NCBI GenBank assembly: GCA_944381165.1
Contig: CALWKC010000030.1
Span: 1-33,768, forward strand
Direction of reading: 5' to 3'
DNA length: 33,768 nucleotides
Source: an uncultured Lachnospira sp.
GTDB lineage: Bacteria > Bacillota > Clostridia > Lachnospirales > Lachnospiraceae
The notes under the pieces were generated by a model. The model saw only the letters and a program-made list of their open reading frames with translations, searched no databases and was not told the DNA's origin. Numbering within the stretch: position 1 is the stretch's first letter; each line of letters starts with the position of its first letter. This document shows positions 13,444-28,799 of the stretch, piece by piece. The position numbers and the translations under genes were made by a program.

Positions 13444-13745
13444 TAATTTGTTCCTTTGTAATATCTAAGCTGTTATATCTGAGTTTGAAATATATATGTT
13501 TTAGTATAGAGCATATGAGCCGTCAATTCAACCAAAAGCCGTGTGAAAAATAAGCTGCCGGAATTATTTTTCAATCTGAGACCTCAAAGACATCGTTAAA
13601 AAATGTATTATAAAATGCACTGTAAATTGTGTTTTTTTATACATTGCTTTTTTTACAAAATCTTGTTACATTATATAGATAGATTAAGGGCAACAGGCTG
13701 TCATAAGCGTGATTACAGCGCAGCGCGCCGGAAATGAGGAGTATT
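13444..13745 (+). promoter_or_regulatory. divergent intergenic region with a likely promoter
   Basis: About 300 AT-rich bases between divergent genes. On the plus strand TTTACA (13652-13657), a 16-nt spacer and TATAGA (13674-13679) form a plausible sigma-A promoter for the methyltransferase-hslO pair. I find no ORF, repeat or RNA gene here. Confidence 0.4.
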
Positions 13746-15369: not shown

Positions 15370-15387
15370 GCAGAAACGCTTCGGGAT

Positions 15388-15546
15388 AGGAGGCAAGTGT
15401 GAAAAATCACGCTGATGCGCTGATTTTCCACACGGCTATTTGTTTCTGAGCGAAAGCAAATAGCCCTGATGGCAGATGAGAAACCGCCTGCGCGGATTTC
15501 TCATCGCCTCTTCGCGACAAGTCGCTCAGAAATGAGGATTGGTGTG
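15388..15546 (+). ncRNA. three-hairpin element with loop-tail pseudoknot, copy 1 (before the AroK-like gene)
   Basis: Core 15397-15532. Hairpin 1: GTGTGAAAAATCA (15397-15409) / TGATTTTCCACAC (15421-15433), one mismatch, with an inner CGC/GCG. Hairpin 2: GGCTATTTG (15434-15442) / CAAATAGCC (15457-15465). A 5-nt linker. Hairpin 3: GGC, bulged A15474, GATGAGAAA / TTTCTCATC, GCC (15471-15508), tip CCGC-CTGC-GCGG. The hairpin-2 loop TTTCTGAGCGA (15443-15453) is perfectly complementary to the tail TCGCTCAGAAA (15522-15532), which ends 3 bases before the AGGA that serves the GTG start at 15544. At the 5' side AGGAGG and GTGAAAAAT (15399) mimic the real gene start. The same architecture with different stem sequences is at 27012-27145. 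I do not recognise it as a named RNA. Confidence 0.7.
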
Positions 15547-16044
15547 AAAAATATTATACTTATCGGAATGCCCGGAAGCGGCAAGAGCACGCTGGGGGTT
15601 GTTCTGGCTAAAAAGCTGGGATACAAATTTATTGATTCTGACCTTTTAATTCAGGAGAAATACGGCAAGACGCTTGAGAGACTGATTGAGGAGTATGGTG
15701 ACGCCGGTTTTATCAAGCTTGAGAATGACGTGAACTGCGGCATTGAGGCAGAGCGCACGGTCATTGCGACAGGAGGCAGCGCTGTGTACGGAAGCGAGGC
15801 TATGGAGCATTTTAAGAAGACAGGAACTGTAATTTACCTTGAGGTTTCCGGGAGCGAGCTTGAGGAGCGCGTAGGCAGTCTTAAGGAGCGCGGAGTAGTA
15901 TCAAACGGAAAGACAAGCGTGGAAGAAATATTTGCCGACAGGAAAAATCTTTACCGCAAATATGCGGATATAACGCTCAGTCAGAACGGAAAGAAAATCA
16001 GAGAGTCAGTTGAGGAGATTTATAATATCGTTGTCGGTTTATAA
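15544..16044 (+). CDS. shikimate-kinase-like P-loop kinase
   Basis: A 166-aa protein of the shikimate kinase/gluconokinase fold. Walker A is GMPGSGKST (residues 8-16), IDSD carries the Mg-binding acidic residue, ATGGSAVY is the shikimate-loop Gly-Gly, and RGVV followed by DRKNLYRKYAD covers lid and core. The FRxxE substrate motif of true AroK is changed to GFIKLEN (Lys instead of Arg), so shikimate may not be the substrate. The GTG at 15544 (MKNIILIGMPGSG) is the likely start, with AGGA at 15535-15538; the frame is open through the structured element to an ATG at 15469. No other aromatic-pathway gene is adjacent. It may be controlled by the element just upstream. Confidence 0.8.
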   Translation: MKNIILIGMPGSGKSTLGVVLAKKLGYKFIDSDLLIQEKYGKTLERLIEEYGDAGFIKLENDVNCGIEAERTVIATGGSAVYGSEAMEHFKKTGTVIYLEVSGSELEERVGSLKERGVVSNGKTSVEEIFADRKNLYRKYADITLSQNGKKIRESVEEIYNIVVGL

Positions 16045-16109
16045 TTGTTTGCAACGCATTGTAAAATGTTTTATACTTAAATAACGGAGCGTTTAGGAGG
16101 AAAAATCAA

Positions 16110-17774
16110 ATGGAAAATGAAGCTGTTTCAAAAAATTTTATTGAACAGATTATAGATAAGGATATAGCTGAGGGATACTGTAAAAAGGTTGTCACGAGAT
16201 TTCCGCCGGAGCCTAACGGTTATCTGCATATAGGACATGCCAAGTCAATATTATTAAATTACGGGCTGGCTGAGGAGTATAACGGACAGTTTAACATGAG
16301 ATTTGACGACACAAATCCAACGAAAGAGAAGGAAGAGTTTGTTGATTCAATTAAACAGGACGTCGAGTGGCTGGGAGCAAAGTGGCACGGAGATGTGCTT
16401 TTCGCGTCGGGCTATTTTGACGAGATGTATGAGGCGGCGGTTAAGCTTATACGAAAAGGGAAGGCATATGTGTGCGATTTGACTCCCGAACAGATAAGGG
16501 AGTACCGGGGTACGCTCACCGAGCCGGGAAAAGAGAGCCCTTACAGAAACCGCTCGGTAGAGGAAAACCTTGAGCTTTTCGAGAATATGAAAAACGGCGT
16601 TTACAGGGACGGGGAGAAGGTGCTTCGCGCAAAGATTGATATGGCGTCCCCGAATATCAATATGAGAGACCCTATTCTGTACAGAGTTGCGCATATACCG
16701 CACCACAGGACAGGAGATAAATGGTGTATTTACCCTATGTATGATTTCGCGCATCCTATAGAAGACGCCATTGAGGGAGTTTCACACTCAATCTGCACGC
16801 TTGAGTTTGAGGACCACAGACCGCTCTATGACTGGGTTGTAAGAGAGCTTGAGTATGAAAATCCTCCAAAGCAGATAGAATTTGCAAAATTGTACCTCAA
16901 CAATGTTGTCACAGGAAAAAGATACATTAAAAAGCTTGTCGAGGAGGGAATTGTCGACGGCTGGGATGACCCAAGACTTGTTTCAATAGCCGCTCTCAGG
17001 AGAAGAGGCTTCACGCCGGAATCGATAAAGATGTTTGTCGAGCTTGTCGGTGTTACAAAGAGCCAGGGTGCAGTCGAATATCCTATGCTTGAGTACTGTA
17101 TACGAGAAGATTTAAAGCTTAAGGCACGCCGTATGATGGCGGTTATAAATCCTGTAAAGGTTATTATTGACAATTATCCCGAGGGTCAGGTTGAGTATAT
17201 GGAGGTCCCTAATAATCAGGAAAATCCTGAGCTCGGAATGAGAAAAGTTCCGTTTACAAGGGAGCTTTATATTGAGAGAGACGACTTTATGATAGAGCCG
17301 CCTAAAAAGTATTTCAGAATGTTTCCGGGAAACGAAGTGCGTCTTATGAATGCGTATTTTGTGACCTGCGTTGATTACAAGACTGATGAAGACGGAAATG
17401 TAACCGAAATACACTGTACCTATGACCCGCAGACAAGAGGCGGCAACTTTGAGGGACGCAAGGTAAAGGGAACTATTCACTGGGTATCCGCTACAGAGGG
17501 TAAGCAGGTGGAAGTTCGTCTCTATGAAAATATTGTAGATGAAGAAAAGGGAGTATACAATGAGGAGGACGGCTCAATCAATGTAAATCCTAATTCACTT
17601 ACGGTTATAAAAAACTGTTATGTAGAGCCGGAGCTTGTAAAGGCGGAAAAGGAAGATAAATTCCAGTTTGTGAGAAACGGTTATTTTTGCGCCGATATGA
17701 AAGACAGCGAAGCGGGAAGACCTGTTTTCAACAGAATAGTTTCGCTTAAAAGCTCGTTTAAGCTTCCAAAATAA
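16110..17774 (+). CDS. glnS: glutaminyl-tRNA synthetase
   Basis: A 554-aa class Ic synthetase that charges tRNA-Gln directly. Visible are [15 protein letters not shown] (HIGH motif), [54 protein letters not shown], and the C-terminal beta-barrel blocks [13 protein letters not shown] and [15 protein letters not shown], co-linear with the E. coli enzyme. The KMSKS-like loop reads [10 protein letters not shown] where E. coli has VMSKRKL, so only the Lys-Arg pair is kept. Ribosome binding site AGGAGG about 9 nt before the ATG. It follows the AroK-like gene by 65 bases. Confidence 0.97.
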
Positions 17775-17844
17775 GACCGTTAAAAATAAGGCGCTTGATA
17801 ACGGCGGCGCTGTCTGAAAATTCCGAAACGGAGAATGAATTGTA

Positions 17845-18609
17845 ATGAGTGAAATGACTAATAATATAGCGGAAGAGAGCGCTTATATTTTTGAAAAAAA
17901 GATTGACTGTCCGATATGCCGTAAAGAGTTTTCCGCGATGCAGGTAAAGACAGGAAAAGCAAGATTTCAGGGAACGGATGATGATTTAAGACCGAGGTAT
18001 CAGGGCGTTGACACGATAAAATATGATATTTATATGTGTCCGCACTGCGGATATGCTGCAGTCGCGCGTGAGTTTAACAATGTCACGCCAAAGCAGAGAC
18101 AGCTTATCATGTCTGAAATAGGCAATAAATATGCCGGCTCGGATACTCATCATGAGGGCGCATACACCTATGACGAGGCGATTGTGCGGTATAAAATGGC
18201 GCTCCTGACAGCGATAAAGAAACCTTCAAAGCTCAGTGAATGCGCGTATCTGTGCCTCAAGCTGTCATGGCTTTACCGTGCAGCAGGGGAGCAGCTTGCT
18301 GCTGACGCGCAGGGACGCGAGCTGTCGCCAAATGAAAGGAAACATCTTGAGGATTGCAGACAGGGCGAGCGGCAGTATCACAGTCAGGCATATAACGGGC
18401 TTAAGGAGGCTTTGCTCAAGGAATATCCTCCTATATGCGGAATGGATGAGGATACACTAAATTATCTTATGTCTGTGCTTGCCTATCACTGTGAAGATAC
18501 AGGCAGCGCAAGCCAGTTCGGCTACATGGTGCTCAGTTCACGCACGGCATCATCAAAGCTTAAAGAAAAAGAGCGTGAAATTATGGAAATAATGAAGACG
18601 GAGAGTTAG
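17845..18609 (+). CDS. DUF2225 family protein
   Basis: A 254-aa soluble protein with two zinc-binding pairs: CPICRKEF (about residues 19-26) and CPHCGYAAV (about 67-75), separated by a KARFQGTDDDLRPRYQGVD segment, which is the DUF2225 signature. The C-terminal part is helical and repeat-like (TPR-like). The function of the family is unknown. Its stop is 2 bases from the start of the LtaS-like gene, so the two are probably cotranscribed. Confidence 0.88.
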   Translation: MSEMTNNIAEESAYIFEKKIDCPICRKEFSAMQVKTGKARFQGTDDDLRPRYQGVDTIKYDIYMCPHCGYAAVAREFNNVTPKQRQLIMSEIGNKYAGSDTHHEGAYTYDEAIVRYKMALLTAIKKPSKLSECAYLCLKLSWLYRAAGEQLAADAQGRELSPNERKHLEDCRQGERQYHSQAYNGLKEALLKEYPPICGMDEDTLNYLMSVLAYHCEDTGSASQFGYMVLSSRTASSKLKEKEREIMEIMKTES

Positions 18610-18611
18610 AT

Positions 18612-20621
18612 TTGAAAAGGTGTCTTTTGTGGTGCAAATCCGCAGCGATTTACGGACTGCATACAGAGGTGGGAAGAATATTTGTGTTTTCACTGCTCAT
18701 AAATATTCTGGTAGAATGTTTGAATCACAGAAATTTATGGGGATTGACAGAGCTGTTTGTCAATCCCGTTGTGTTTTTGTATAACACGCTTATTATTATG
18801 CTTACAATGTGCGTTTCGCTTTTTACGAGGCGCAAGATTTTTGCGGGCGTGACAATCGGAGGTATATGGGTGGTACTTGCGGTTATAAATTTTGTCGTGC
18901 TGTCATCGAGAAAGACGCCTTTTACCGCAATGGACATATATCTCATTCAGGACGCTATAAAGGTTATACCTGTGTATCTTAACGTGTTTCAGATTATCCT
19001 TATAGTGGTCGCGGTTATAGCCGGTATTGCAGGCCTGGTGTTTTTGTGGATTAAAGGGCCTAAAGTGCCGACAGAGTTAAATCTTAAATCCAGGCTGTTA
19101 TGGGCTGCAGTAAAGACGGCAGTTGTCGGAGTACTGGTTTTGGGACTGACGCTTGTTCTTATTCCGATGGGAGTTCTCGGACGCAATTTCGGCAATCTCG
19201 GAAACGCGTATAAACAGTACGGATTTGCGTACTGCTTTTCCTGCAGTGTTGTAGGGCGGGGTATAAGCAAGTCGGATGATTATTCTGAGGAATATATGGA
19301 TGGTATAAAGGAGCAGCTTGATACGAGTCAGGGAGTAGAAAATTCACAATCACATCCGAATATTATTTTTGTCCAGCTCGAGTCATTTTTTAATCCTGAG
19401 CGCATAAAGGGAGTAGAGTTTTCAAGCGAGCCGCTGCCTAATTTTAAAAAGTATTCGACAGAGTACTCTGCCGGGTATATTTCTGTGCCTTGTTTCGGAG
19501 CGGGCACTGCAAATACCGAATTTGAGGTGCAGACAGGTATCAACCTCGATGATTTCGGCCCCGGAGAATATCCGTACAAGACAGTGCTTCAGTCGGCAAT
19601 CTGCGAATCCGCGGCATATAATCTGAAAAGCTTAGGTTACAGTACACATGCACTGCACAACAACGACGGAACATTTTACAACAGAAATAAAGTGTTCCCG
19701 CATCTTGGATATGACAGCTTTACATCTGTTGAGTATATGACAAATATTGAGTACACTCCTACAGGCTGGGCTAAGGATAAAATACTTACGGGTGAAATTG
19801 AAAAGCTCCTTGACAAGACCGATGGCTCTGATTATATTTATACAATTTCTGTTCAGGGACACGGGGATTATCCTTCACAGATGCCCGAAGGGTATACTCC
19901 TGAAATCAAGGTTGAGGGCTTCTTTGACGAGGACAGCGAAGAGGCGTTTGAGTATTATGTAAATCAGCTTCACGAGATGGATAAGTTTATCGGCGAGCTG
20001 GTGGATATGCTTTCGAAACGAGGGGAGGAGACTGTGCTTGTAATGTACGGCGACCATCTTCCGGGATTTTCATTTACGGACGATAATCTGTCATACGGTG
20101 ATATATATCAGACGCCTTATTTTGTATGGGATAATATAGGGCTTAAGAGAGAGTATAAGAATATTGAGGCATATCAGCTTTCATCATATCTTTTTGAAAG
20201 ACTTGGCATAACAGAAGGGTATATCAACAGGTATCATCAGAAATATAAATATTCTGAGGATTATCTTAAAAATTTAAAAATCCTTGAGTATGATATACTA
20301 TACGGAGATCATGAAATTTACGGCGGAGAAAATCCGTATAAGGCCACAGATATGGTTATGGGTACCGACGAGATAAAAATAACAAAGGCGTATGCTTACG
20401 GAGACCATGTATGTGTAGAGGGTGAAAATTTTAATGATTTCAGTGTTGTGCTTGTAAATGAAAAAGAATATCCTACCGTTATTGTCAACGGAAATATGCT
20501 TACGGTAGAGGGAGTGAAGCTTAAAGCAGGTGATAAAGTTTCTGTCATTCAGCGAGGAAAGGATAAAATTGAACTCAGCAGGGTAACTCTTGAACTGACG
20601 GTTGACAATACAAAACCGTAA
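18612..20621 (+). CDS. LtaS-type phosphoglycerol transferase / sulfatase-family membrane enzyme
   Basis: A 669-aa protein with five N-terminal membrane helices (about residues 20-195) and an extracellular alkaline-phosphatase-superfamily domain starting at PNIIFVQLESFFNPERIKG. The likely nucleophile is T299 in GAGTANTEFEVQTG; TISVQGHGDYP and MYGDHLPGF supply metal-site residues. This is the layout of lipoteichoic acid synthase, which transfers glycerol phosphate from phosphatidylglycerol. After the catalytic domain there is an extra beta-rich domain of about 75 residues (ITKAYAYGDHVCVEGENF to the end), not part of classical LtaS. The start is TTG 18612, with GGAGAG overlapping the end of the DUF2225 gene; no ATG fits the first helix. 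Confidence 0.88.
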   Translation: MKRCLLWCKSAAIYGLHTEVGRIFVFSLLINILVECLNHRNLWGLTELFVNPVVFLYNTLIIMLTMCVSLFTRRKIFAGVTIGGIWVVLAVINFVVLSSRKTPFTAMDIYLIQDAIKVIPVYLNVFQIILIVVAVIAGIAGLVFLWIKGPKVPTELNLKSRLLWAAVKTAVVGVLVLGLTLVLIPMGVLGRNFGNLGNAYKQYGFAYCFSCSVVGRGISKSDDYSEEYMDGIKEQLDTSQGVENSQSHPNIIFVQLESFFNPERIKGVEFSSEPLPNFKKYSTEYSAGYISVPCFGAGTANTEFEVQTGINLDDFGPGEYPYKTVLQSAICESAAYNLKSLGYSTHALHNNDGTFYNRNKVFPHLGYDSFTSVEYMTNIEYTPTGWAKDKILTGEIEKLLDKTDGSDYIYTISVQGHGDYPSQMPEGYTPEIKVEGFFDEDSEEAFEYYVNQLHEMDKFIGELVDMLSKRGEETVLVMYGDHLPGFSFTDDNLSYGDIYQTPYFVWDNIGLKREYKNIEAYQLSSYLFERLGITEGYINRYHQKYKYSEDYLKNLKILEYDILYGDHEIYGGENPYKATDMVMGTDEIKITKAYAYGDHVCVEGENFNDFSVVLVNEKEYPTVIVNGNMLTVEGVKLKAGDKVSVIQRGKDKIELSRVTLELTVDNTKP

Positions 20622-20630
20622 TGTTAATAT
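20602..20630 (+). promoter_or_regulatory. strong promoter for the cold-shock gene
   Basis: TTGACA (20602-20607), 17-nt spacer, TAATAT (20625-20630). The -35 box lies in the last codons of the LtaS-like gene. The leader to the cold-shock start would be about 50 nt. Confidence 0.65.
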
Positions 20631-20687
20631 GAACTTGATGTATTGCTATAGCTGCGGTCATCACATATTTTTTTGGAGGTACTTGAA

Positions 20688-20885
20688 ATGAAAGGTACAG
20701 TAAAGTGGTTCAACAATCAGAAAGGGTACGGCTTCATCAACGATGAGAACGGGAATGATGTTTTCGTACACTATTCAGGTCTTAACATGGAGGGCTTTAA
20801 GTCATTAGACGAGGGCGCTCAGGTTGAGTTTGACGTTACAGAAGGGGCAAAGGGTCCTCAGGCTACTAACGTAACAAAATTATAA
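20688..20885 (+). CDS. csp: cold-shock protein (CspA family)
   Basis: A 65-aa single OB-fold protein that binds single-stranded RNA and DNA and acts as an RNA chaperone. It shows the start [17 protein letters not shown] (RNP1 KGYGFI) and RNP2 VFVHYS. The start at 20688 is set by GGAGG (20675-20679) and by the family N-terminus; the frame is open to an ATG at 20673, which lies before that site. It has its own promoter inside the end of the preceding gene. Confidence 0.96.
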
Positions 20886-21073
20886 TCCGAAAGTTTTACA
20901 GTGTGCCTTTTTTAATATACAATCCAGTTATTGAAAAGATATATTGTTATGCAATCAAGATTATGAGGGGAGCAGCTGCATATTTTGTGGCTGCTTCTTG
21001 TTTGTTGGAGGACAGTCTTTTGTGATGATATACAAGCAGCTTGCAGATAAAATTTAACGAAATGAGGTAGTTT

Positions 21074-21892
21074 ATGGAAGGTATTGATTTTACACAGCAG
21101 CTTCCGAATGGTGTTGAAGGAATGATAATGGCGGGAGGAATTTTGCTGCTGTCATTTTTCATTGTTATGTTCATTGTTGTCAAGAAGCGTTGGAAAGGAA
21201 AGCTGATGCCGTTCTTTCTTGGATTTATGACATATACAATTTTTGTGTTTATGTGTGTAAATCTTATAACATCTGCACTGGCTCTTATACCGAGTGTAGA
21301 TATGGCGTTTACTTATAATCAGACCGCTTATATAATTCTGTACTATCTGCTTGCGGGTATAGCGTTTCTTATAGCCAGAATGGTTTTGACGCGTATGCTC
21401 ACAGAGCGTTTTGAGACACGGGGAGACGTGTATATGGCGGGGCTGGGACTTGGAATAGGTGACAGTATTCTGTATGGCGTTACGGCGGTTTCTTATTACG
21501 TATGGTGTATAGCAATCAGGGGCGAGGGTCTTGAGTCCGCGTTTGCGGGGCTTTCGAGCGAGGATGTGATCGCAACCTACGAATCAATAACGACGCTGTT
21601 TACATCACCAATAATTCTGTGGTTTCTGTTGGGGATAAGCTGTATAATGGATATGCTTATTCAGTTTGCACTTGTGATTACGGCATACGGACAGCTTAAA
21701 GGATACCTGCCGGGATACTGGAGTATGTTGTCGGTCGGAATTTATTTTGTGAATGCAATTTCATTCCAGCTCTATGACAGCCGGTCTGTTGTAAGCATAG
21801 CAATAGCATTTGCCGTTAAGCTTGTGATATTTGCCGCATCAATGTACTATGCACTTTATGTCGCCGGAAGGCAGATAAAATACGAGGAATAA
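21074..21892 (+). CDS. polytopic membrane protein, YhfC-like topology
   Basis: A 272-aa protein with about seven membrane helices (first GGILLLSFFIVMFIVVKKRW, last VVSIAIAFAVKLVIFAASMYY). The layout recalls the YhfC family, but the GHGxxE-like metalloprotease motif of that family is not evident; the matching place reads GLGLGIGDSILYGV. The family assignment is therefore weak. It lies 12 bases before the P-type ATPase gene, with which it is probably cotranscribed. The upstream 20886-21073 gap holds only a weak hairpin (AGCAGC 20971-20976 / GCTGCT 20990-20995). Confidence 0.7.
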   Translation: MEGIDFTQQLPNGVEGMIMAGGILLLSFFIVMFIVVKKRWKGKLMPFFLGFMTYTIFVFMCVNLITSALALIPSVDMAFTYNQTAYIILYYLLAGIAFLIARMVLTRMLTERFETRGDVYMAGLGLGIGDSILYGVTAVSYYVWCIAIRGEGLESAFAGLSSEDVIATYESITTLFTSPIILWFLLGISCIMDMLIQFALVITAYGQLKGYLPGYWSMLSVGIYFVNAISFQLYDSRSVVSIAIAFAVKLVIFAASMYYALYVAGRQIKYEE

Positions 21893-21904
21893 TTACGAGG
21901 AAGA

Positions 21905-24262
21905 ATGATAGAAGTTAAAACACCTGATACTGATATTGATAACGGACTTTCTATGGAGGAAGTTGACAGACTGACGAGAGCGGGACTCTACAATGAGCCC
22001 GTTAAGAGTCAGTCTAAAAGTGTTTGGCAGATAATAGCGGGAAATGTATTTACGTATTTCAATTTAATATTTGCAATTTTTGCAGCGCTTTTAATTCTGG
22101 TAAGGTCATATATTAATATGACCTTTCTTCCGATTTTAATCATAAATACGATGATTGGAATTGTGCAGGAGATAAGGACAAAACATGTACTGGACAAACT
22201 TACGCTTCTTAACGCTCCCAAGACAAGGGTTATAAGGGAGGGGAGTGAGAGCGAGGTGGATTCCGAGACGCTGGTGCAGGGGGACTTATGCGTTTTTTCG
22301 GCGGGTAAGCAGATTTGCGCAGATGCGCGTATTGTTCGGGGAAACGTCCGGGTAAATGAATCTCTTGTAACCGGTGAATCCGATGAAATCACAAAGAGTC
22401 CGGGAGACGCTCTTCTTTCGGGAAGCTATGTGGTATCCGGCGAGTGCCGTGCCGTTCTTGAACATGTTGGACTTTCGTCATATGCGTCAAAGATTGCGCT
22501 CGAGGCGAAGGCATCGAGAAAAAAACAGCAGACTGAGATGATGCGCTCTTTGGACAAGCTGGTAAAGGTTATCGGAATTGCTATTATTCCTATAGGTTTA
22601 CTGATGTTTTGCAGCACATTCTTTTTCCTTAAAAATTCTTTTCAGCAGAGTGTTGTATCAGTGATTGCGGCTCTTGTCGGAATGATACCTGAGGGGCTTT
22701 ATCTTCTTGCAAGTGTTGCATTGGTTGTCAGCGTTATGCGTCTTGGCAGAAAAAAGGTTCTTGTCCATGAAATGGCATGTGTTGAAACGCTTGCGAGGGT
22801 TAATGTTCTGTGTGTAGACAAGACCGGAACTATAACAGAGGAAAAGATGTCTGTTTCAGAGGTTGTGCCTCTTGAAAATTATAATACCGGAAATTATCCG
22901 TCGCTTCACGAAATGATTGGAAATCTTGTAAACAATCTTCCGGCGGACAATATAACGGTTGAGACGCTTAAGGAATATTTTAACGCAGAGCACAGTATGG
23001 ATGCGGAAAGCGTCTGTCCGTTTTCGTCAGAGACAAAATACAGTGCGGCTGCATTTGGTGACGGTCAGGTGTACATTATGGGAGCACCGGAAAAGGTGCT
23101 TCTGGAGCGTTACGGAGTTTACCGGAAGCAGATTGAGAGATATGCACGCAGAGGGCTGCGTGTAATGATTTTCGGAGTGTGCTCCGTCAATCCTGCCGGA
23201 AAGCCGCTTCAAAAGCCAATAGAGCCGCTCGCCCTTATCGTGCTTGGAAACGCAATACGTGATGACGCAAAGGAAACCTTTAAATATTTCGCCGACCAGG
23301 GTGTTGAAATAAAGGTAATATCGGGAGATAATCCTATAACTGTATCAAGCGTGGCAAAGGACGCAGGAATTGCAGGCGCAGAGAATTGTGTCGACGCATC
23401 GTCTCTTGACACTGATGAAAAGCTTGCCGAGGCGGCAGTTAAGTATACGGTGTTCGGAAGAGTTCAGCCTGACCAGAAACGCCGTATTGTCCAGGCATTG
23501 AAGGCTTCGGGAAAGGTCGTGGCGATGACGGGAGACGGCGTTAATGATGTGCTTGCGTTAAAAAGCGCCGACTGCAGCGTGGCATTTCGCTCGGGAAGCG
23601 ACGCGGCATGCAACGCGGCTCAGATAGTACTGCTGGAATCGAATTTTTCGTGCATGCCTTCAGTTGTTCTCGAGGGCAGGCGCGTTGTAAATAATATACA
23701 GAGAACGGCGGCATTATTTCTCGTGAAAAATATTTTTTCAATGCTGCTTGCTGTATTTACGCTTATAGCAGGTCACAGGTACCCGCTTTATCCTACGCAG
23801 CTGTCGCTGCTGGGAGCTTTTACAATCGGAGCTCCGGGTTTTCTGCTCGCGCTTCAGCCGAATAAAAATATAATAAGCGGCAACTTTCTTGTCAATGTCA
23901 CTATAAAGGCGCTGCCCGCGGCGCTGACGGATTTTCTGCTTGTTGCGCTGTTTTCATTGTACAGCAATTTCAGCGGAATACCGCACGAACAGCTTTCTAC
24001 CACTGTGGCATTTATTCTGCTCACGGTCGGAATGGCGGAGCTGGTTCGTGTGTGCAAACCGCTGAATTGGATAAGAACATGTATATGTGCGGCTATGGGA
24101 ATAGGTATAGTAATCAGCGTGATATTTTTCGGTGAGCTTTTTGCAATCAGCGCGCTCACGCCGGGAATGTGGGTACATACAATTATCTGGATGGTATGTT
24201 CAATCCCTATCTTCTACGTAATGTGCAGGCTTGTCGGAAAATTATTTGACAGATTTCTCTGA
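21905..24262 (+). CDS. cation-transporting P-type ATPase, CtpE-like
   Basis: A 785-aa P-type ATPase. The phosphorylated aspartate is D305 in CVDKTGTITEE; the actuator loop is NESLVTGESDEI; the hinge is MTGDGVNDVLALKSAD. The ion-site helix has GMIPEGLYLLASVAL, the PEGL form seen in CtpE-type and calcium/magnesium-type pumps rather than the CPx of heavy-metal pumps. There is no N-terminal metal-binding domain. Ca2+ is the best guess by analogy with mycobacterial CtpE, but the ion is not proven by the sequence. The ribosome binding site is GAGGAAG. Its 3' end overlaps the converging lipoprotein gene by 21 bases. Confidence 0.88.
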   Translation: MIEVKTPDTDIDNGLSMEEVDRLTRAGLYNEPVKSQSKSVWQIIAGNVFTYFNLIFAIFAALLILVRSYINMTFLPILIINTMIGIVQEIRTKHVLDKLTLLNAPKTRVIREGSESEVDSETLVQGDLCVFSAGKQICADARIVRGNVRVNESLVTGESDEITKSPGDALLSGSYVVSGECRAVLEHVGLSSYASKIALEAKASRKKQQTEMMRSLDKLVKVIGIAIIPIGLLMFCSTFFFLKNSFQQSVVSVIAALVGMIPEGLYLLASVALVVSVMRLGRKKVLVHEMACVETLARVNVLCVDKTGTITEEKMSVSEVVPLENYNTGNYPSLHEMIGNLVNNLPADNITVETLKEYFNAEHSMDAESVCPFSSETKYSAAAFGDGQVYIMGAPEKVLLERYGVYRKQIERYARRGLRVMIFGVCSVNPAGKPLQKPIEPLALIVLGNAIRDDAKETFKYFADQGVEIKVISGDNPITVSSVAKDAGIAGAENCVDASSLDTDEKLAEAAVKYTVFGRVQPDQKRRIVQALKASGKVVAMTGDGVNDVLALKSADCSVAFRSGSDAACNAAQIVLLESNFSCMPSVVLEGRRVVNNIQRTAALFLVKNIFSMLLAVFTLIAGHRYPLYPTQLSLLGAFTIGAPGFLLALQPNKNIISGNFLVNVTIKALPAALTDFLLVALFSLYSNFSGIPHEQLSTTVAFILLTVGMAELVRVCKPLNWIRTCICAAMGIGIVISVIFFGELFAISALTPGMWVHTIIWMVCSIPIFYVMCRLVGKLFDRFL

Positions 24263-25261
24263 AAAGCTTGTGTCAACAAGTTTATCGTAAGGAACATCCT
24301 CGTTGAGTTCGCCAGCCTGCTTTAAAATATCGGTGAGCAGGTTGAATGACTCCTCTGTGAATATTGTGTCGCTCTTCCATGTGTCCTGAGATTTGTAGCG
24401 CTCTACAATTTTTGTGAGTGTGTCAGTGTCGGTCTCTGTAAACTGCGGAGCTATAACTGCTGCAATCTCAGCGCTGGTATGGCTGTTTACATAGTCGAGT
24501 CCCTTCTGGATTGCGTTGGTGAAGGACTGTATTATTTCAGGATTTTTTTCTATATAACTCTTCTTTGCGCAGTACGCGGTATAAGGTACATATCCGCTGT
24601 CTACTCCGAGAGATGCGACAACGTAACCTTTTCCCTCGGCTTCTATTGCTGTGGCAGACGGCTCAAACTCGGCGGTGAAGTCTCCGAGGCCTGAGGCGAA
24701 GGCGGCAGCGGTGGAGCCGAAATCAATATTCTGTACAATCTCTACGTCTGTTTCGGGGTCGATCCCGTTCTTTTTGAGAATATATTCGAGAAGCATCTGA
24801 GGCATTCCGCCTGCTCTGCCGCCGAGAACGGTTTTTCCTTTAATGTCATCCCATTTAAAATCGGTTATATTATCCCTTGAGACAAGGAAGTTGCCTGCAC
24901 GCTGTGTGAGCTGTGCAAAATTCACGGCATAATCAGATGAGCCTCCCGTATATATATAGATAGACGATTCAGAGCCCATAAAGCCTATATCCGCATCTCC
25001 GCTTATAAGAGATGTCATAACCTTGTCGGCACCGAAGCCGGTGACAAGAGTAAGCTCAATACCTTCCTCTTCAAAGTATCCGTTTTCGATTGCAACATAC
25101 TGAGGCGCATAGAAGATAGAGTGAGCAACCTCATTGAGCGTAAGTTTGGTGGTCGTGGTATCGTTGTTTTCGGTCTTTTTTGACGAACATCCAACCAGGC
25201 CTGAACATACCATGACGATGCACATTATAACAGCAAAAAAACGCTTGAATTTAAAATGCAT
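24242..25261 (-). CDS. ABC-transporter substrate-binding lipoprotein (NMT1/SsuA-ThiY type)
   Basis: A 339-aa secreted lipoprotein. The signal peptide ends in the lipobox SGLVGCSS, with lipidated Cys at about residue 25. The mature part starts KLTLNEVAHSIFYAPQYVAI, then ENGYFEEEGIELTLVTGFGA, the usual opening of the NMT1/OpuAC-like periplasmic-binding fold that carries thiamine precursors, sulfonates or nitrate; GSTAAAFASGLGDFTAEFEP follows. GGAG lies 5 nt before the ATG. No permease or ATPase gene is adjacent, so it is an orphan here. Its stop codon overlaps the end of the convergent P-type ATPase gene. Confidence 0.88.
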   Translation of the reverse strand: MHFKFKRFFAVIMCIVMVCSGLVGCSSKKTENNDTTTTKLTLNEVAHSIFYAPQYVAIENGYFEEEGIELTLVTGFGADKVMTSLISGDADIGFMGSESSIYIYTGGSSDYAVNFAQLTQRAGNFLVSRDNITDFKWDDIKGKTVLGGRAGGMPQMLLEYILKKNGIDPETDVEIVQNIDFGSTAAAFASGLGDFTAEFEPSATAIEAEGKGYVVASLGVDSGYVPYTAYCAKKSYIEKNPEIIQSFTNAIQKGLDYVNSHTSAEIAAVIAPQFTETDTDTLTKIVERYKSQDTWKSDTIFTEESFNLLTDILKQAGELNEDVPYDKLVDTSFSEKSVK

Positions 25262-25498
25262 ATTTACTCCATTGATATTTTTTATTATAATATGTGAGAA
25301 AAAATAAGTGTTTCATTTTTTTCCCTTTTATGGTATTATGTTTATAATTATAAGAGGGTATCAAAGCAATTAAAGTTGTCCGATAGCTTATTATTTTACG
25401 GCGTGATTATTTTCGGTGATTGCGGGGCTTAAGCCGGAAAACTGAGTACTGTTGGAGAAAGCTGTACAGGCTGTATGGGCGGAAGGAGAGAATGCACT

Positions 25499-26905
25499 AT
25501 GTTTGGGAAGAAGAAAGAAATTACGGCGAAGGACAGTGATATTAATATCCTTATGCAGATGATGGATGAGATTATAGCCGGTAATTATAATGATGTTGAT
25601 GTGGCTGCGTTTGAGGAGCCTGCGTATGGAGAGAAGCTTAATGAGCTGATCCATGCTTTTAAGAAGGCGAACAACAACTTTGTCATGAGACTTAACGAAG
25701 CTATGGAGTCAATCGGTGATAATTCTTATGTAAAAAAGACCCTTGATTTAGTTCAGGAGCAGACGCAGTCGATAGCTGACATGGAGGAGGAAAGCCATAA
25801 TCTTGAGAGCTCTATTAACAGCATATCAGACGCGATGGGTCATATTCAGGACAATACGCATGAGATGCTTGCCGTTGCTCAGAACAGTACGGCGAATATG
25901 AACGAGAGCATTAAGGTTGTAAATGAATCTTCTGACAAGATCAGCACAATAAATGCTCAGGTACAGGAGTTCCAGGATAAGATAGACAAAATCAGCGAGA
26001 TTGTCGATATTGTAAAAAAGGTTGCAAGCCAGAGTAATCTGCTTGCTTTGAATGCATCCATTGAAGCGGCGAGAGCAGGAGAGGCAGGAAAGGGCTTTGC
26101 TGTTGTTGCCGACCAGGTCAGACAGCTTTCGAGCAATACGTCTGAATCGGCAGAGGATATTGTAAAGTATGTAAATGAGTTAAAGACTGATATAGGCACG
26201 CTTGCGGAGTCTATGAACGATACCACGAGAAAGCTTGAGGAGGGCAATCAGAAGGTTGAAGAGTCGCTTACGGATATTGAGAAGATGACCACTCAGATGA
26301 CTGAGATAAAAGAGAAAATTGATGATATATTCTCTGATATTGATAAGCAGTCAGATGTTATGTCTGCTTTTACAAAGCAGGTTGCAGGAATTTCAGACAG
26401 CTATGATGAGCTTTCTAAGGGCTGTACTGAGCAGGGTGTTCATGTATACAAGATTGGACGCTACATAGATACGACAAGAAGCGATATGGTGCGCGGTTTT
26501 GCGGAGGTAACTCTTCAGGATTGGCTGAGAATTTTTGAGATTGATCACTTTATACTTATGTGGCGTGTATACAACAATGTTGTTGAATTTGAGCACTTAA
26601 AGATTACGCAGCTCAATAACCCTGAGAAATGCAAGCTTGGTCTTTGGATTAATTCACAGACTGACCCTGCTGTTACCGGATGTCCTGAGTTTGCTAATCT
26701 CAAGGCGGCTCATTACGATGTGCACAAATATGCTACCGAGTCTTGGAAGGCTAAGGATGCAGGTGACACGGAGCTTGCAATGGAGTATTTCAATAAGACA
26801 TATGATGCATTCTTTGTATACCAGAAGGCTATTAGGAAGATGCAGGATAAGTTCAGACAGCTCGGAGAGACAGAGAAGACAGAGATAGTGATTTTCCGCG
26901 CTTAA
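25499..26905 (+). CDS. soluble methyl-accepting chemotaxis protein with C-terminal CZB zinc domain
   Basis: A 468-aa cytosolic chemoreceptor with no membrane helix. A short helical N-terminal region is followed by the coiled-coil signalling domain, whose hairpin tip reads [20 protein letters not shown], then [16 protein letters not shown]. The C-terminal 110 residues form a CZB (chemoreceptor zinc-binding) domain: H in [10 protein letters not shown] in [10 protein letters not shown], and two H in [10 protein letters not shown] give the 3-His/1-Cys site. CZB receptors are known to sense zinc or oxidants such as hypochlorous acid. The start is ATG 25499, with AGGAG 10 nt upstream; an ATG at 25475 lies before that site. 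No chemotaxis kinase gene is near. A terminator follows. Confidence 0.92.
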
Positions 26906-26937
26906 ATCAGCGGCGGAGTGACGAGGGTATACTGCAT

Positions 26938-26988
26938 AAGACTGTTATATTCGGTATTTTAGGCGTACCGGTTATGGCAGTCTTTTGT
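26938..26988 (+). terminator. terminator after the chemoreceptor gene
   Basis: AAGACTG (26938-26944) pairs with CAGTCTT (26978-26984); the stem extends inward through wobble pairs and CGGTA/TACCG. It is followed by TTTGTG. Confidence 0.7.
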
Positions 26989-27003
26989 GATTTATTTGCG
27001 AAT

Positions 27004-27161
27004 GGAGATTAGCTTGAAAAATAAGCTCGATAGCTTATTTTTCAAGCGTCTGTTTGTGCCGGAGCGTCACAAACAGATATTATCGCAGAAGAAAAATTGC
27101 CTGCGCGAATTTTTCTTCGCGTTCCGTGCGCGTGAAACGCTCCGGAATGGAGATTGATATG
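27004..27161 (+). ncRNA. three-hairpin element with loop-tail pseudoknot, copy 2 (before the pyrophosphatase)
   Basis: Core 27012-27145. Hairpin 1: GCTTGAAAAATAAGCT (27012-27027) / AGCTTATTTTTCAAGC (27032-27047), perfect 16 bp. Hairpin 2: TCTGTTTGTG (27049-27058) / CACAAACAGA (27068-27077). A 5-nt linker. Hairpin 3: CGC, bulged A27087, GAAGAAAAATT / AATTTTTCTTC, GCG (27084-27121), tip GC-CTGC-GC. The whole 9-nt hairpin-2 loop CCGGAGCGT (27059-27067) is complementary to ACGCTCCGG (27137-27145), 3 bases before the GGAG (27149-27152) serving the ATG at 27159. Lengths match copy 1: hairpin 1 is 36 versus 37 nt, hairpin 2 is 31 versus 32, hairpin 3 is 38 in both. It begins 16 bases after the preceding terminator, so it belongs to the pyrophosphatase mRNA. 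Confidence 0.72.
27014..27157 (+). CDS. possible 47-aa ORF inside element copy 2
   Basis: A TTG at 27014 with GGAG at 27004-27007 opens a 47-codon frame through all three hairpins (starting MKNKLDSLFFKRLFVPERHK, ending ARETLRNGD), with a TGA one base before the pyrophosphatase ATG. Copy 1 has the matching start (MKNHADALIFH) but stops after 16 codons. This could be a coupled leader peptide or simply the coding shadow of an RNA structure; the latter seems more likely to me. Confidence 0.22.
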   Translation: MKNKLDSLFFKRLFVPERHKQILSQKKNCLREFFFAFRARETLRNGD

Positions 27162-28799
27162 GAAAAGCCTGTATACGTTATAGGACATAAAAACCCCGAT
27201 ACAGATTCAGTGTGTTCGGCAGTGTGTTATGCGAGATTAAAGTCGCTGATAACAGGGAAAAATTATATTGCAAAGAGGGCGGGACATCTTAATGAGGAGA
27301 CACAGTATGTTTTTGACAGCTTTAAGATTAAGCCTCCCGAGTATATAAATGACGTAAGACCGCAGGTAAAGGATGTGGATATTTATGAAATAGACGGTGT
27401 TGATGAGCAAATTTCCATAAAAGAGGCGTGGAATATTATGAAAAGTAATAATGTTGTAACGCTTCCTGTAACTGAGGGAGAGGAGCTTAAAGGGCTAGTC
27501 ACAATAGGAGATATTTCGCGCTCTTATTTTGAGGTTTATGACAGCGATATTCTCGCGCGGGCAAATACAAGGTTTATGAATATTGTTGACACGCTTAAAG
27601 CCAGAGTTATAACAGGAAATACCGAGCAGACAGTTGACAGCGGAAAGGTTGTGATTGCCGCGGCAAATCCCGAGCTCATGGAGCAGTTTATAGAGGACGG
27701 GGATATAGTGATACTTGGAAACAGGTATGAGGCGCAGCTCTGTGCAATAGAAATGAATGCCAGATGTATTGTGGTCTGTGAGGGAGCGCAGGTGTCAAAA
27801 ACTATTGTCAAGGTGGCGGACGAGAATAACTGCGCTGTCATTGTCACGGATTATGACACATATACAGTTGCCAGGCTTATAAATCAGAGTATGCCTATAA
27901 GCTATTACATGATGAAACGCAGCGGACTGGTAACCTTCTGTCTTACTGATTACATAGAGGACATTCAGGACGTAATGTCAAAAAAGCGTTTCAGTAATTT
28001 TCCGGTTGTCGATGAAAACGGAAAATATGCAGGTATGATTTCCAGAAGAAATCTTTTAAGACATGGCAGAAAGCAGCTTATTTTAGTAGACCACAATGAG
28101 AGGAGCCAGGCTGTGAGCGGAGTAGACACAGCAGACATACTTGAGATTATCGACCACCACAGAATAGGCTCAATTCAGACGATGTCGCCGGTGTATTTCA
28201 GAAATCAGCCGCTGGGCAGCACAGCCACAATTATTTATCAGATGTATAAAGAAAATAACCTTGTGCCTGACAGGGAAACGGCTGAGCTTTTGTGCGCGGC
28301 AATTATATCAGATACACTGATTTTAAAGTCGCCGACATGTACACAGACAGATATTGATGCGTGTCAAAGTCTCGCAAAGCTTTCGGGAATTGATATAGAC
28401 AGCTGCGGCAGAGCCATGTTTAAGGCGGGCAGCAATATTTCCAGCAAGACGCCTAAAGAGCTGTTTAACCGTGATTTTAAGAAGTTTGCTGTGGGCGACA
28501 TCGTTGTAGGAGTTGGACAGGTAAACTGTATGGAAGTAGATGAGATAGCGAACGTTCAAAAAATAATGGGAGGCTATATAGATGAAGTCACTGGGGAGAA
28601 TGGTCTGGACATGGCATTTTTCATGATTACCAATGTGCTTGACGGCTGTTCTGAGGTTTTGTGCGGCGGAAAGAATGCTGTTCAGACGCTCTCTATGGCG
28701 TTTAATGTTCAGCCGGCGGGAGAGTCTGTGCATCTTGATGGAGTCGTATCGCGCAAGAAACAGCTCTTTCCGGTAATTATGGAGGCGCTGCAGCAGTGA
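27159..28799 (+). CDS. ppaC: manganese-dependent inorganic pyrophosphatase with CBS and DRTGG domains
   Basis: A 546-aa family II (DHH) pyrophosphatase that hydrolyses PPi in the cytoplasm. GHKNPDTDSVCSA (H10, D14, D16) is the first metal motif, VDHNERSQAV and IDHHRIGS the second and DHH motifs; the DHHA2 domain is C-terminal. The insert after about residue 70 contains a CBS domain (IKEAWNIMKSNNVVTLPVTE), a DRTGG-like domain and a second CBS (VMSKKRFSNFPVVDENGKYA), which in related enzymes bind AMP, ADP or diadenosine polyphosphates for control. The ATG at 27159 is chosen from GGAG 27149-27152 and the family N-terminus; the frame is open to 27054 through the structured element. map follows at 21 bases. 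Confidence 0.94.
   Translation: MEKPVYVIGHKNPDTDSVCSAVCYARLKSLITGKNYIAKRAGHLNEETQYVFDSFKIKPPEYINDVRPQVKDVDIYEIDGVDEQISIKEAWNIMKSNNVVTLPVTEGEELKGLVTIGDISRSYFEVYDSDILARANTRFMNIVDTLKARVITGNTEQTVDSGKVVIAAANPELMEQFIEDGDIVILGNRYEAQLCAIEMNARCIVVCEGAQVSKTIVKVADENNCAVIVTDYDTYTVARLINQSMPISYYMMKRSGLVTFCLTDYIEDIQDVMSKKRFSNFPVVDENGKYAGMISRRNLLRHGRKQLILVDHNERSQAVSGVDTADILEIIDHHRIGSIQTMSPVYFRNQPLGSTATIIYQMYKENNLVPDRETAELLCAAIISDTLILKSPTCTQTDIDACQSLAKLSGIDIDSCGRAMFKAGSNISSKTPKELFNRDFKKFAVGDIVVGVGQVNCMEVDEIANVQKIMGGYIDEVTGENGLDMAFFMITNVLDGCSEVLCGGKNAVQTLSMAFNVQPAGESVHLDGVVSRKKQLFPVIMEALQQ

Follow-up and report, generated by a model that had tools for sequence, protein, structure and literature searches.

Why two unrelated genes should share a structured leader is the question raised by a stretch of 33,768 nucleotides (nt) from an uncultured Lachnospira sp. 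(GCA_944381165.1, contig CALWKC010000030.1, positions 1-33,768, forward strand), which was analysed at its full length and is referred to as the window. Two copies of an element made of three hairpins (H1, H2 and H3), the loop of H2 forming a pseudoknot with the tail, lie next to the start codons of a shikimate kinase-like gene and a pyrophosphatase gene. The initial annotation considered a riboswitch-like translational switch, a protein-binding leader or a dispersed repeat whose transcript folds. The last of these guesses proved right, since about 50 copies precede unrelated genes, are polymorphic in their insertion and are accompanied by duplicated ribosome-binding sites. The element is very probably a non-autonomous mobile element of gut bacteria which targets ribosome-binding sites in sense orientation and leaves a Shine-Dalgarno (SD) sequence beside the gene.

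The element is dispersed before the starts of unrelated genes

A covariance model built from the two window copies alone (R1) was run on the genome from which the window comes (G000; 2.57 Mb, 100% complete by markers), giving 51 matches at E <= 1, of which 50 at E <= 2.4e-8 (bit scores between 45 and 182). The genome of a sister species (G020; 85% complete by markers) also had 51 matches. Out of 41 genomes searched, 15 were positive (G000 included); within the genus, matches were found in 13 of 22 genomes and none in the remaining 9 at E <= 0.001. Such a model had been proposed in the initial annotation, and it recovered many further homologues with compensatory changes. Wider samples were searched with less strict filters and with at most 7 candidates scored per genome, so that their copy numbers are lower bounds; matches were found in 46 of 396 genomes across the family, in 42 of 393 across the order (2 of the 42 in another family) and in 1 of 398 across the phylum, which is the window's own. 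In a pattern scan of named genomes, the matches listed came mostly from Lachnospiraceae (e.g. Acetatifactor, Eisenbergiella, Roseburia, Lachnospira and Parablautia). No match to the element was found among the plasmids searched. Three unannotated faecal records labelled 'Bacteriophage sp.' match it and could be bacterial contamination; the match covers 89-97% of the query in two of them and 45% in the third. The single match in IMG/VR (L290) looks like chance by eye and was discarded.

The set of copies examined comprises 119 sequences, 49 from G000, 45 from G020 and 25 from other genomes. For G000, 49 of the 51 R1 matches were analysed, leaving out a match with E 0.0355, an overlapping tandem match and an antisense fragment, while for G020 45 of 51 matches were used, from 39 stretches searched, with one antisense fragment dropped. 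Apart from these 119, a GTDB set drawn from 80 loci, out of 116 or more stretches, gave 87 matches, of which 79 were used after removal of those that were cut off or fragments. The end of the copy coincides with the start of an open reading frame (ORF) of at least 60 amino acids for 103 of the 119 copies, compared with 912 of 4760 places drawn at random from the same loci, and the count rises to 104 of 119 if ORFs running off the contig are allowed. An SD sequence is present for 101 of these 103 copies. The genes behind them are functionally unrelated, as had first been noted for the kinase and the pyrophosphatase alone: those tested with Pfam code for shikimate kinase, pyrophosphatase, a mannose-1-phosphate guanylyltransferase-like protein, a tetrapyrrole-methylase-family protein and GreA, and further ones, judged from the beginning of their translations, presumably code for peptide deformylase, UvrA, RuvB, PyrE and FtsW. 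The gene behind copy L008 may be broken, because it stops after 6 codons in G000 and the G020 sequence at the same start (L107) is different.

The element measures about 135-160 nt. Two main subfamilies are seen among the G000 copies, with the H2 loops TTTCTGAGCGA and GCCGGAGCGTC, respectively; within a subfamily H2, H3 and the tail are alike and H1 varies by compensatory changes. In some copies H1 is missing, joined or replaced by another palindrome. Five copies (L024, L030, L034, L126 and L113) carry an extra palindrome around GCATGCAAAGCATGGC, or a variant of it, which either replaces H1 or separates it from H2; other species have different palindromes at the same place, which suggests that modules are exchanged.

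Insertion polymorphism is accompanied by duplication of the Shine-Dalgarno region

Comparison of the two sister species provides filled and empty alleles of the same loci. Where both carry a copy, the downstream flanks are 90-99% identical. Among the G020 copies fetched, 24 of the 49 G000 copies have a partner at the same gene, and conversely 21 of the 45 G020 copies have none in the G000 set. Queries made of the two joined flanks located the corresponding place in G000 for 11 of 12 G020-only copies (one in two pieces), with three additional weak matches to element copies, and in G020 for 9 of 12 G000-only copies. The empty alleles have one SD, while the filled alleles have an SD on either side of the element. 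A script placed 20 of these 24 filled and empty pairs, 19 of them with a short gap. The duplicated stretch was positive in 15 of the 19 mapped pairs and at least 6 nt long in 13 of them, with a median of 10; examples are AATGGAGATTA (L005), AAAAGGTGAATAGTATGGAAAAT (L109), AACGCTCAGAAATGGAGATTA (L108) and GGGATA (L110). Full-length copies thus have a duplicated SD at their 5' end, a feature that the initial annotation had missed and that marks them as insertions. A similar signal is found without reference to empty alleles: among 59 of the 119 copies (a simple hairpin rule classed 67 as full length, a few of these doubtfully, and orthologues were then removed), the longest stretch common to the left and right junctions has a mean of 8.98, against 6.75±0.24 for permuted partners (n=5000, maximum 7.81).

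In 5 of the 19 mapped pairs (L005, L007, L027, L108 and L110) the identity with the target on the left ends exactly at the TA before the first G of H1, which suggests that the element has a sharp left end; in the remaining pairs it ends earlier or extends into H1. In L109 the target's own ATGGAAAAT lies in the left arm of H1, and the right arm complements ATGAAAAAT. The right boundary slides, and letters of the target can enter the pseudoknot tail (L106, by eye). Remnants of older copies adjoin 5 of the 119 copies in a motif screen, with the copies lying behind them, as would follow if a restored SD can serve once more as a target. The same gene may also carry different versions of the element in the two species, namely different subfamilies (L008 and L107) or different H1-H2 parts (L019 and L123).

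The Mn-pyrophosphatase gene of the window was located in 10 other genomes of the genus (16 loci), without any R1 match below E 1.6 nearby, while the control locus in G020 scores 168 bits. Genome G013 has a different hairpin-rich insert before the pyrophosphatase start (about 1420-1511 of locus L085), which ends in AATGGAG, is present as a single copy in that genome and gives only 9.3 bits with R1 (E 1.6).

Several observations weigh against a mobile element of this kind. Four of the 19 mapped pairs (L003, L004, L119 and L129) show no overlap, and the duplications of L014 and L011 are only 1-5 nt long, although that of L014, counted as 1 because its empty allele has a small tandem repeat of its own, is longer by eye. 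A further 4 of the 24 gave no pair, and L121 has only a decayed relative in G000. The duplication is not clear for the first window copy (ATAGGAGGCAAG compared with AAATGAGGATTGG). As both ends of the element resemble an SD, the apparent duplications vary in length and the true staggered length cannot be fixed from the sequence; nor were terminal inverted repeats between the ends seen by eye. No mobilising gene or autonomous copy was found, the searches having covered RVT_1 and Y1 but not DDE transposases. Lastly, with the pseudoknot left out, the predicted openness of the SD is no better than behind a shuffled element (0.34 and 0.385, respectively, p 0.06).

The decayed relative of L121 (L155) is an internally deleted copy in which part of H1 and the tail are kept and H2 and most of H3 are lost, so that it reads as a decay intermediate.

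Fold, mobility and competing explanations

The initial annotation had described the architecture of the two window copies accurately, including hairpin lengths of 37/36, 32/31 and 38/38 nt, the 5-nt linker before H3, the bulged A, the CTGC tip and the complementarity of loop and tail. It overstated the divergence: nearly all stem bases were said to differ, whereas 26 of the 37 modelled pairs are identical, 8 are changed on both sides and 3 on one side. Both copies fold better than dinucleotide shuffles (z of -7.2 and -6.1, with 0 of 200 shuffles as good), yet two copies alone are thin evidence for a conserved fold, and it is the wider set that is overwhelming. In the 25 copies from other genomes, the 46 pairs (those of the pseudoknot included) are formed in 95.4% of cases, and 35 of them are changed on both sides, while slid versions of the structure bring pairing down to 35-47%. 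The pseudoknot helix taken alone is 92.7% paired, with changes on both sides in 7 of its 9 pairs. The 87 matches from named genomes include partial ones; here 31 of the 37 pairs show changes on both sides, the inner pairs of H2 being fixed by the search pattern and uninformative. None of 500 shuffles reaches the pair covariation observed in alignments A5 and A6, which are fitted to the model and biased towards its structure. The pairing of each loop with its own tail is independent of these alignments: the run has a mean of 7.80 nt, compared with 5.84 for permuted and 3.79 for shuffled tails (181 of 198 copies), and of 7.86 compared with 5.79±0.18 for permuted tails when the pattern-selected set is left out (103 copies). 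The stems and the loop-tail pseudoknot thus covary strongly, and the claims made for structure, covariation and pseudoknot from two copies hold in the wider set. Over three model-fitted alignments there are 187 G-T cells against 109 A-C ones, which points to conservation of the fold on the sense strand, the excess coming perhaps in part from the alignment model.

Conservation of a protein had been named as the alternative to base pairing. In several copies an ORF does run from the 5' SD; a leader peptide was nevertheless rejected, and with it coding constraint, because H1 variants such as GTGTAA stop at once and the changes in H1 are compensatory. Group II introns begin with the motif GUGYG; this end was also considered for the element and rejected, the motif not being kept (variants GTATG, GATTG and GGTTG).

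A riboswitch or protein-binding leader would have to switch access to the SD upon receiving a signal, with the pseudoknot competing against an alternative hairpin of the tail with a GCGA or GCGT just upstream. The covarying structure does adjoin the SD, many tails are able to form such a local hairpin (by reading the copies), and over 81 copies the predicted openness of the SD increases from 0.34 without the pseudoknot to 0.50 with the tail held in it. This gives slight support to the idea that the pseudoknot, by engaging the element's own tail, keeps it away from the SD, the value of 0.50 being partly built in by the constraint that holds the tail open. However, neither a set of related genes nor inheritance together with them, as expected of a cis-regulatory leader, is seen: the genes are unrelated, the same genes lack the element in relatives, sister species differ in where they carry it, no match was obtained in 9 of the 22 genomes of the genus, and many copies lack H1 and H3 or have them swapped. 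We therefore find this explanation, which covers the first two guesses of the initial annotation, very improbable. The element may affect the regulation of some genes, but this is not what distributes it.

Of the features by which miniature inverted-repeat transposable elements (MITEs) and other small non-autonomous mobile elements are recognised, on the other hand, dispersal in many copies, insertion polymorphism and target duplication are present. In the mechanism that we favour, the element would insert in sense direction into a ribosome-binding site and duplicate the SD region, so that the old SD ends up upstream of H1 and an SD stays beside the start codon. The transcribed RNA would form H1, H2 and H3, together with the pseudoknot of the H2 loop with the tail abutting the SD. 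The fold could then be a self-contained domain which leaves the SD usable, so that insertion would be tolerated before housekeeping genes because the SD is re-created beside the start codon, and would presumably be harmless to translation. The same fold, as RNA or as single-stranded DNA, may mark the ends of the element for an enzyme acting in trans.

What this enzyme might be can be approached from the genes resident in the genomes. Mobilisation as an ordinary MITE by a DDE transposase, belonging to a resident insertion sequence that strongly prefers SD-like targets, is a tentative possibility, for which the direct target repeats, the high copy number and the patchy presence speak. The lack of visible terminal inverted repeats, the varying length of the apparent duplication, the sense orientation of the copies and a structure that covaries as an internal fold with a pseudoknot are less easily reconciled with it. 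Single-strand transposition of a hairpin-ended element by an HUH/Y1 enzyme (IS200/IS605 or RAYT-like) would fit the hairpin at the 5' end and the presence of Y1_Tnp in G000, G020 and three other genomes (G012, G016 and G031). The distribution of this domain does not follow that of the element: it also occurs in genomes without R1 matches (G002, G003, G014 and G021) and was not found in G004, G005 and G015, which carry copies (the first two are incomplete assemblies). The enzyme of G000 is an IS200-like gene, and ends common to it and the element were not found; around six Y1 loci, those of G000 and G020 included, there is no R1 match below E 0.5, and the resident gene was rejected as a partner. 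Enzymes of this type normally leave no target duplication, whereas one is observed here, and we consider them unlikely agents. A spread resembling that of short interspersed nuclear elements (SINEs), in which the RNA of the 5' untranslated region (5' UTR) is reverse-transcribed into DNA that is then joined by way of SD homology, would account for sense insertion at sites defined by the mRNA, for the variable length of the duplication and for the conservation of the fold on the sense strand indicated by the G-T excess. As noted, this excess may stem partly from the alignment model, and a search for RVT_1 reverse transcriptases at E <= 1e-5 gave nothing in G000, G020, G004, G005 or G012; an unusual or lost enzyme is possible, and the route as a whole appears distinctly improbable. 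Rather improbable, too, is the idea of a bacterial counterpart of SINEs, that is, a structured RNA without genes which would choose its site at the level of RNA or single strands, enter in sense at translation starts with variable duplication using the SD as homology, and have a pseudoknot that both marks its end and keeps the gene translated.

Known repeats and the two window copies

The element can be compared with known small repeats, from which it is set apart here (bcr1, BOX, RUP and REP) by their descriptions and not by sequence comparison. Among the closest in kind are the bcr1 repeats of the Bacillus cereus group (100-400 bp, on average 39 bcr1 copies per strain), which have mobile features and a repeated target motif, TTTAT; the element is likewise a short mobile repeat with a repeated target motif, but belongs to another bacterial group, and neither targeting of ribosome-binding sites nor an SD-adjacent pseudoknot is described in the parts of that source consulted (PMC6542083). 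The BOX, RUP and SPRITE repeats of Streptococcus pneumoniae are folded, cotranscribed with genes and likely non-autonomous mobile elements; the modules A-B-C of BOX differ from H1-H2-H3, and the account consulted, in part, does not describe insertion at SD sites (PMC3049150). Repetitive extragenic palindromes (REP) and the Rickettsia palindromic elements are short hairpin repeats of high copy number, with RAYT transposases or without a dedicated one; REP sequences are 20-40 bp long and tagged by GTAG or CGTC, the CGTC families being reported from Proteobacteria, Chlorobi, Bacteroidetes, Spirochaetes and Thermotogae. They differ from the element in being shorter and tagged, with no pseudoknot in the portion of the description consulted (PMC3733652). 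The non-autonomous retrotransposons derived from R2 are small and structured, with a defined 5' end and one kind of insertion site (PMC3414825), but are eukaryotic and need a reverse transcriptase, while RVT_1 was not found in G000. MITEs and stem-loop families are of the same general kind, and in the excerpts consulted a ribosome-binding-site target is not described (PMC10969869, PMC2267715). Among the matches listed in the open-licence literature, titles and abstract openings describe neither the element nor targeting of ribosome-binding sites. It is thus a small mobile repeat of a known kind, and apparently a new family with a new target class.

If this is true, nature would offer here a clean example of a parasite sparing its host, through duplication of the signal at its landing site. 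Because of the element, dozens of genes have different 5' UTRs in the sister species; the filled and empty alleles are natural experiments on UTR structure and translation, and the hunt for the mobilising enzyme is a tractable one. It also serves as a warning that leaders rich in covariation, when they stand before unrelated genes, can be mobile elements and not riboswitches.

Rereading of the sequence confirmed the cores of the window copies at 15397-15532 and 27012-27145, and all features given here are on the forward (+) strand. An SD-like AGGAGG lies at the left (5') junction of the first copy (15386-15396), a position which is that of the duplicated target in other copies. It is followed by H1 (15397-15433; fold and pair comparison, covarying in the wider set), by H2 (15434-15465; fold and covariation), whose loop TTTCTGAGCGA (15443-15453) pairs with the tail, and by H3 with its bulged A and CTGC tip (15471-15508; fold and pair comparison). 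The tail TCGCTCAGAAA (15522-15532), supported by covariation, forms the 3' strand of the pseudoknot and precedes the presumed working SD of the downstream gene, GAGG (15534-15537). Outside the element, the shikimate kinase-like gene (15544-16044, GTG start) matches Pfam SKI at 1.4e-34; its best NCBIfam match is homoserine kinase, below the cut-off of that family. Directly upstream of the first copy, ACGCTTCGGG (15376-15385) resembles the tail of an older copy, beside whose remnant the first copy may have landed.

The second copy is bordered by the left ribosome-binding site AATGGAGATTA (27001-27011), which matches the right one, AATGGAGATT (27146-27155), the presumed working SD. Between them lie H1 (27012-27047), H2 (27048-27078) with the loop CCGGAGCGT (27059-27067), and H3 (27084-27121), all three from fold and pair comparison, and the tail ACGCTCCGG (27137-27145), the pseudoknot 3' strand according to the loop-tail pairing test. 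The gene behind it (27159-28799), outside the element, codes for a Mn-dependent inorganic pyrophosphatase of the CBS/DRTGG type (Pfam and NCBIfam); an ORF at 27054-28799 is not a separate gene but the same one opened upstream through the element.

A comparison with Rfam, also proposed by the initial annotation, gave no family that reaches its threshold for the element. At gathering thresholds only tRNAs were found in the window and one tRNA in 16 further diverse loci. With E up to 5, the regions of the two copies gave 7 sub-threshold matches to unrelated families, which look like chance; the best of them, DUF3800-V, is on the opposite strand (E 0.099, 20.5 bits compared with a cut-off of 37.4). 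Elsewhere in the window, a lone intergenic palindrome resembling H1 (13544-13573, - strand; R1 E 0.014) is perhaps a terminator or an H1 remnant.

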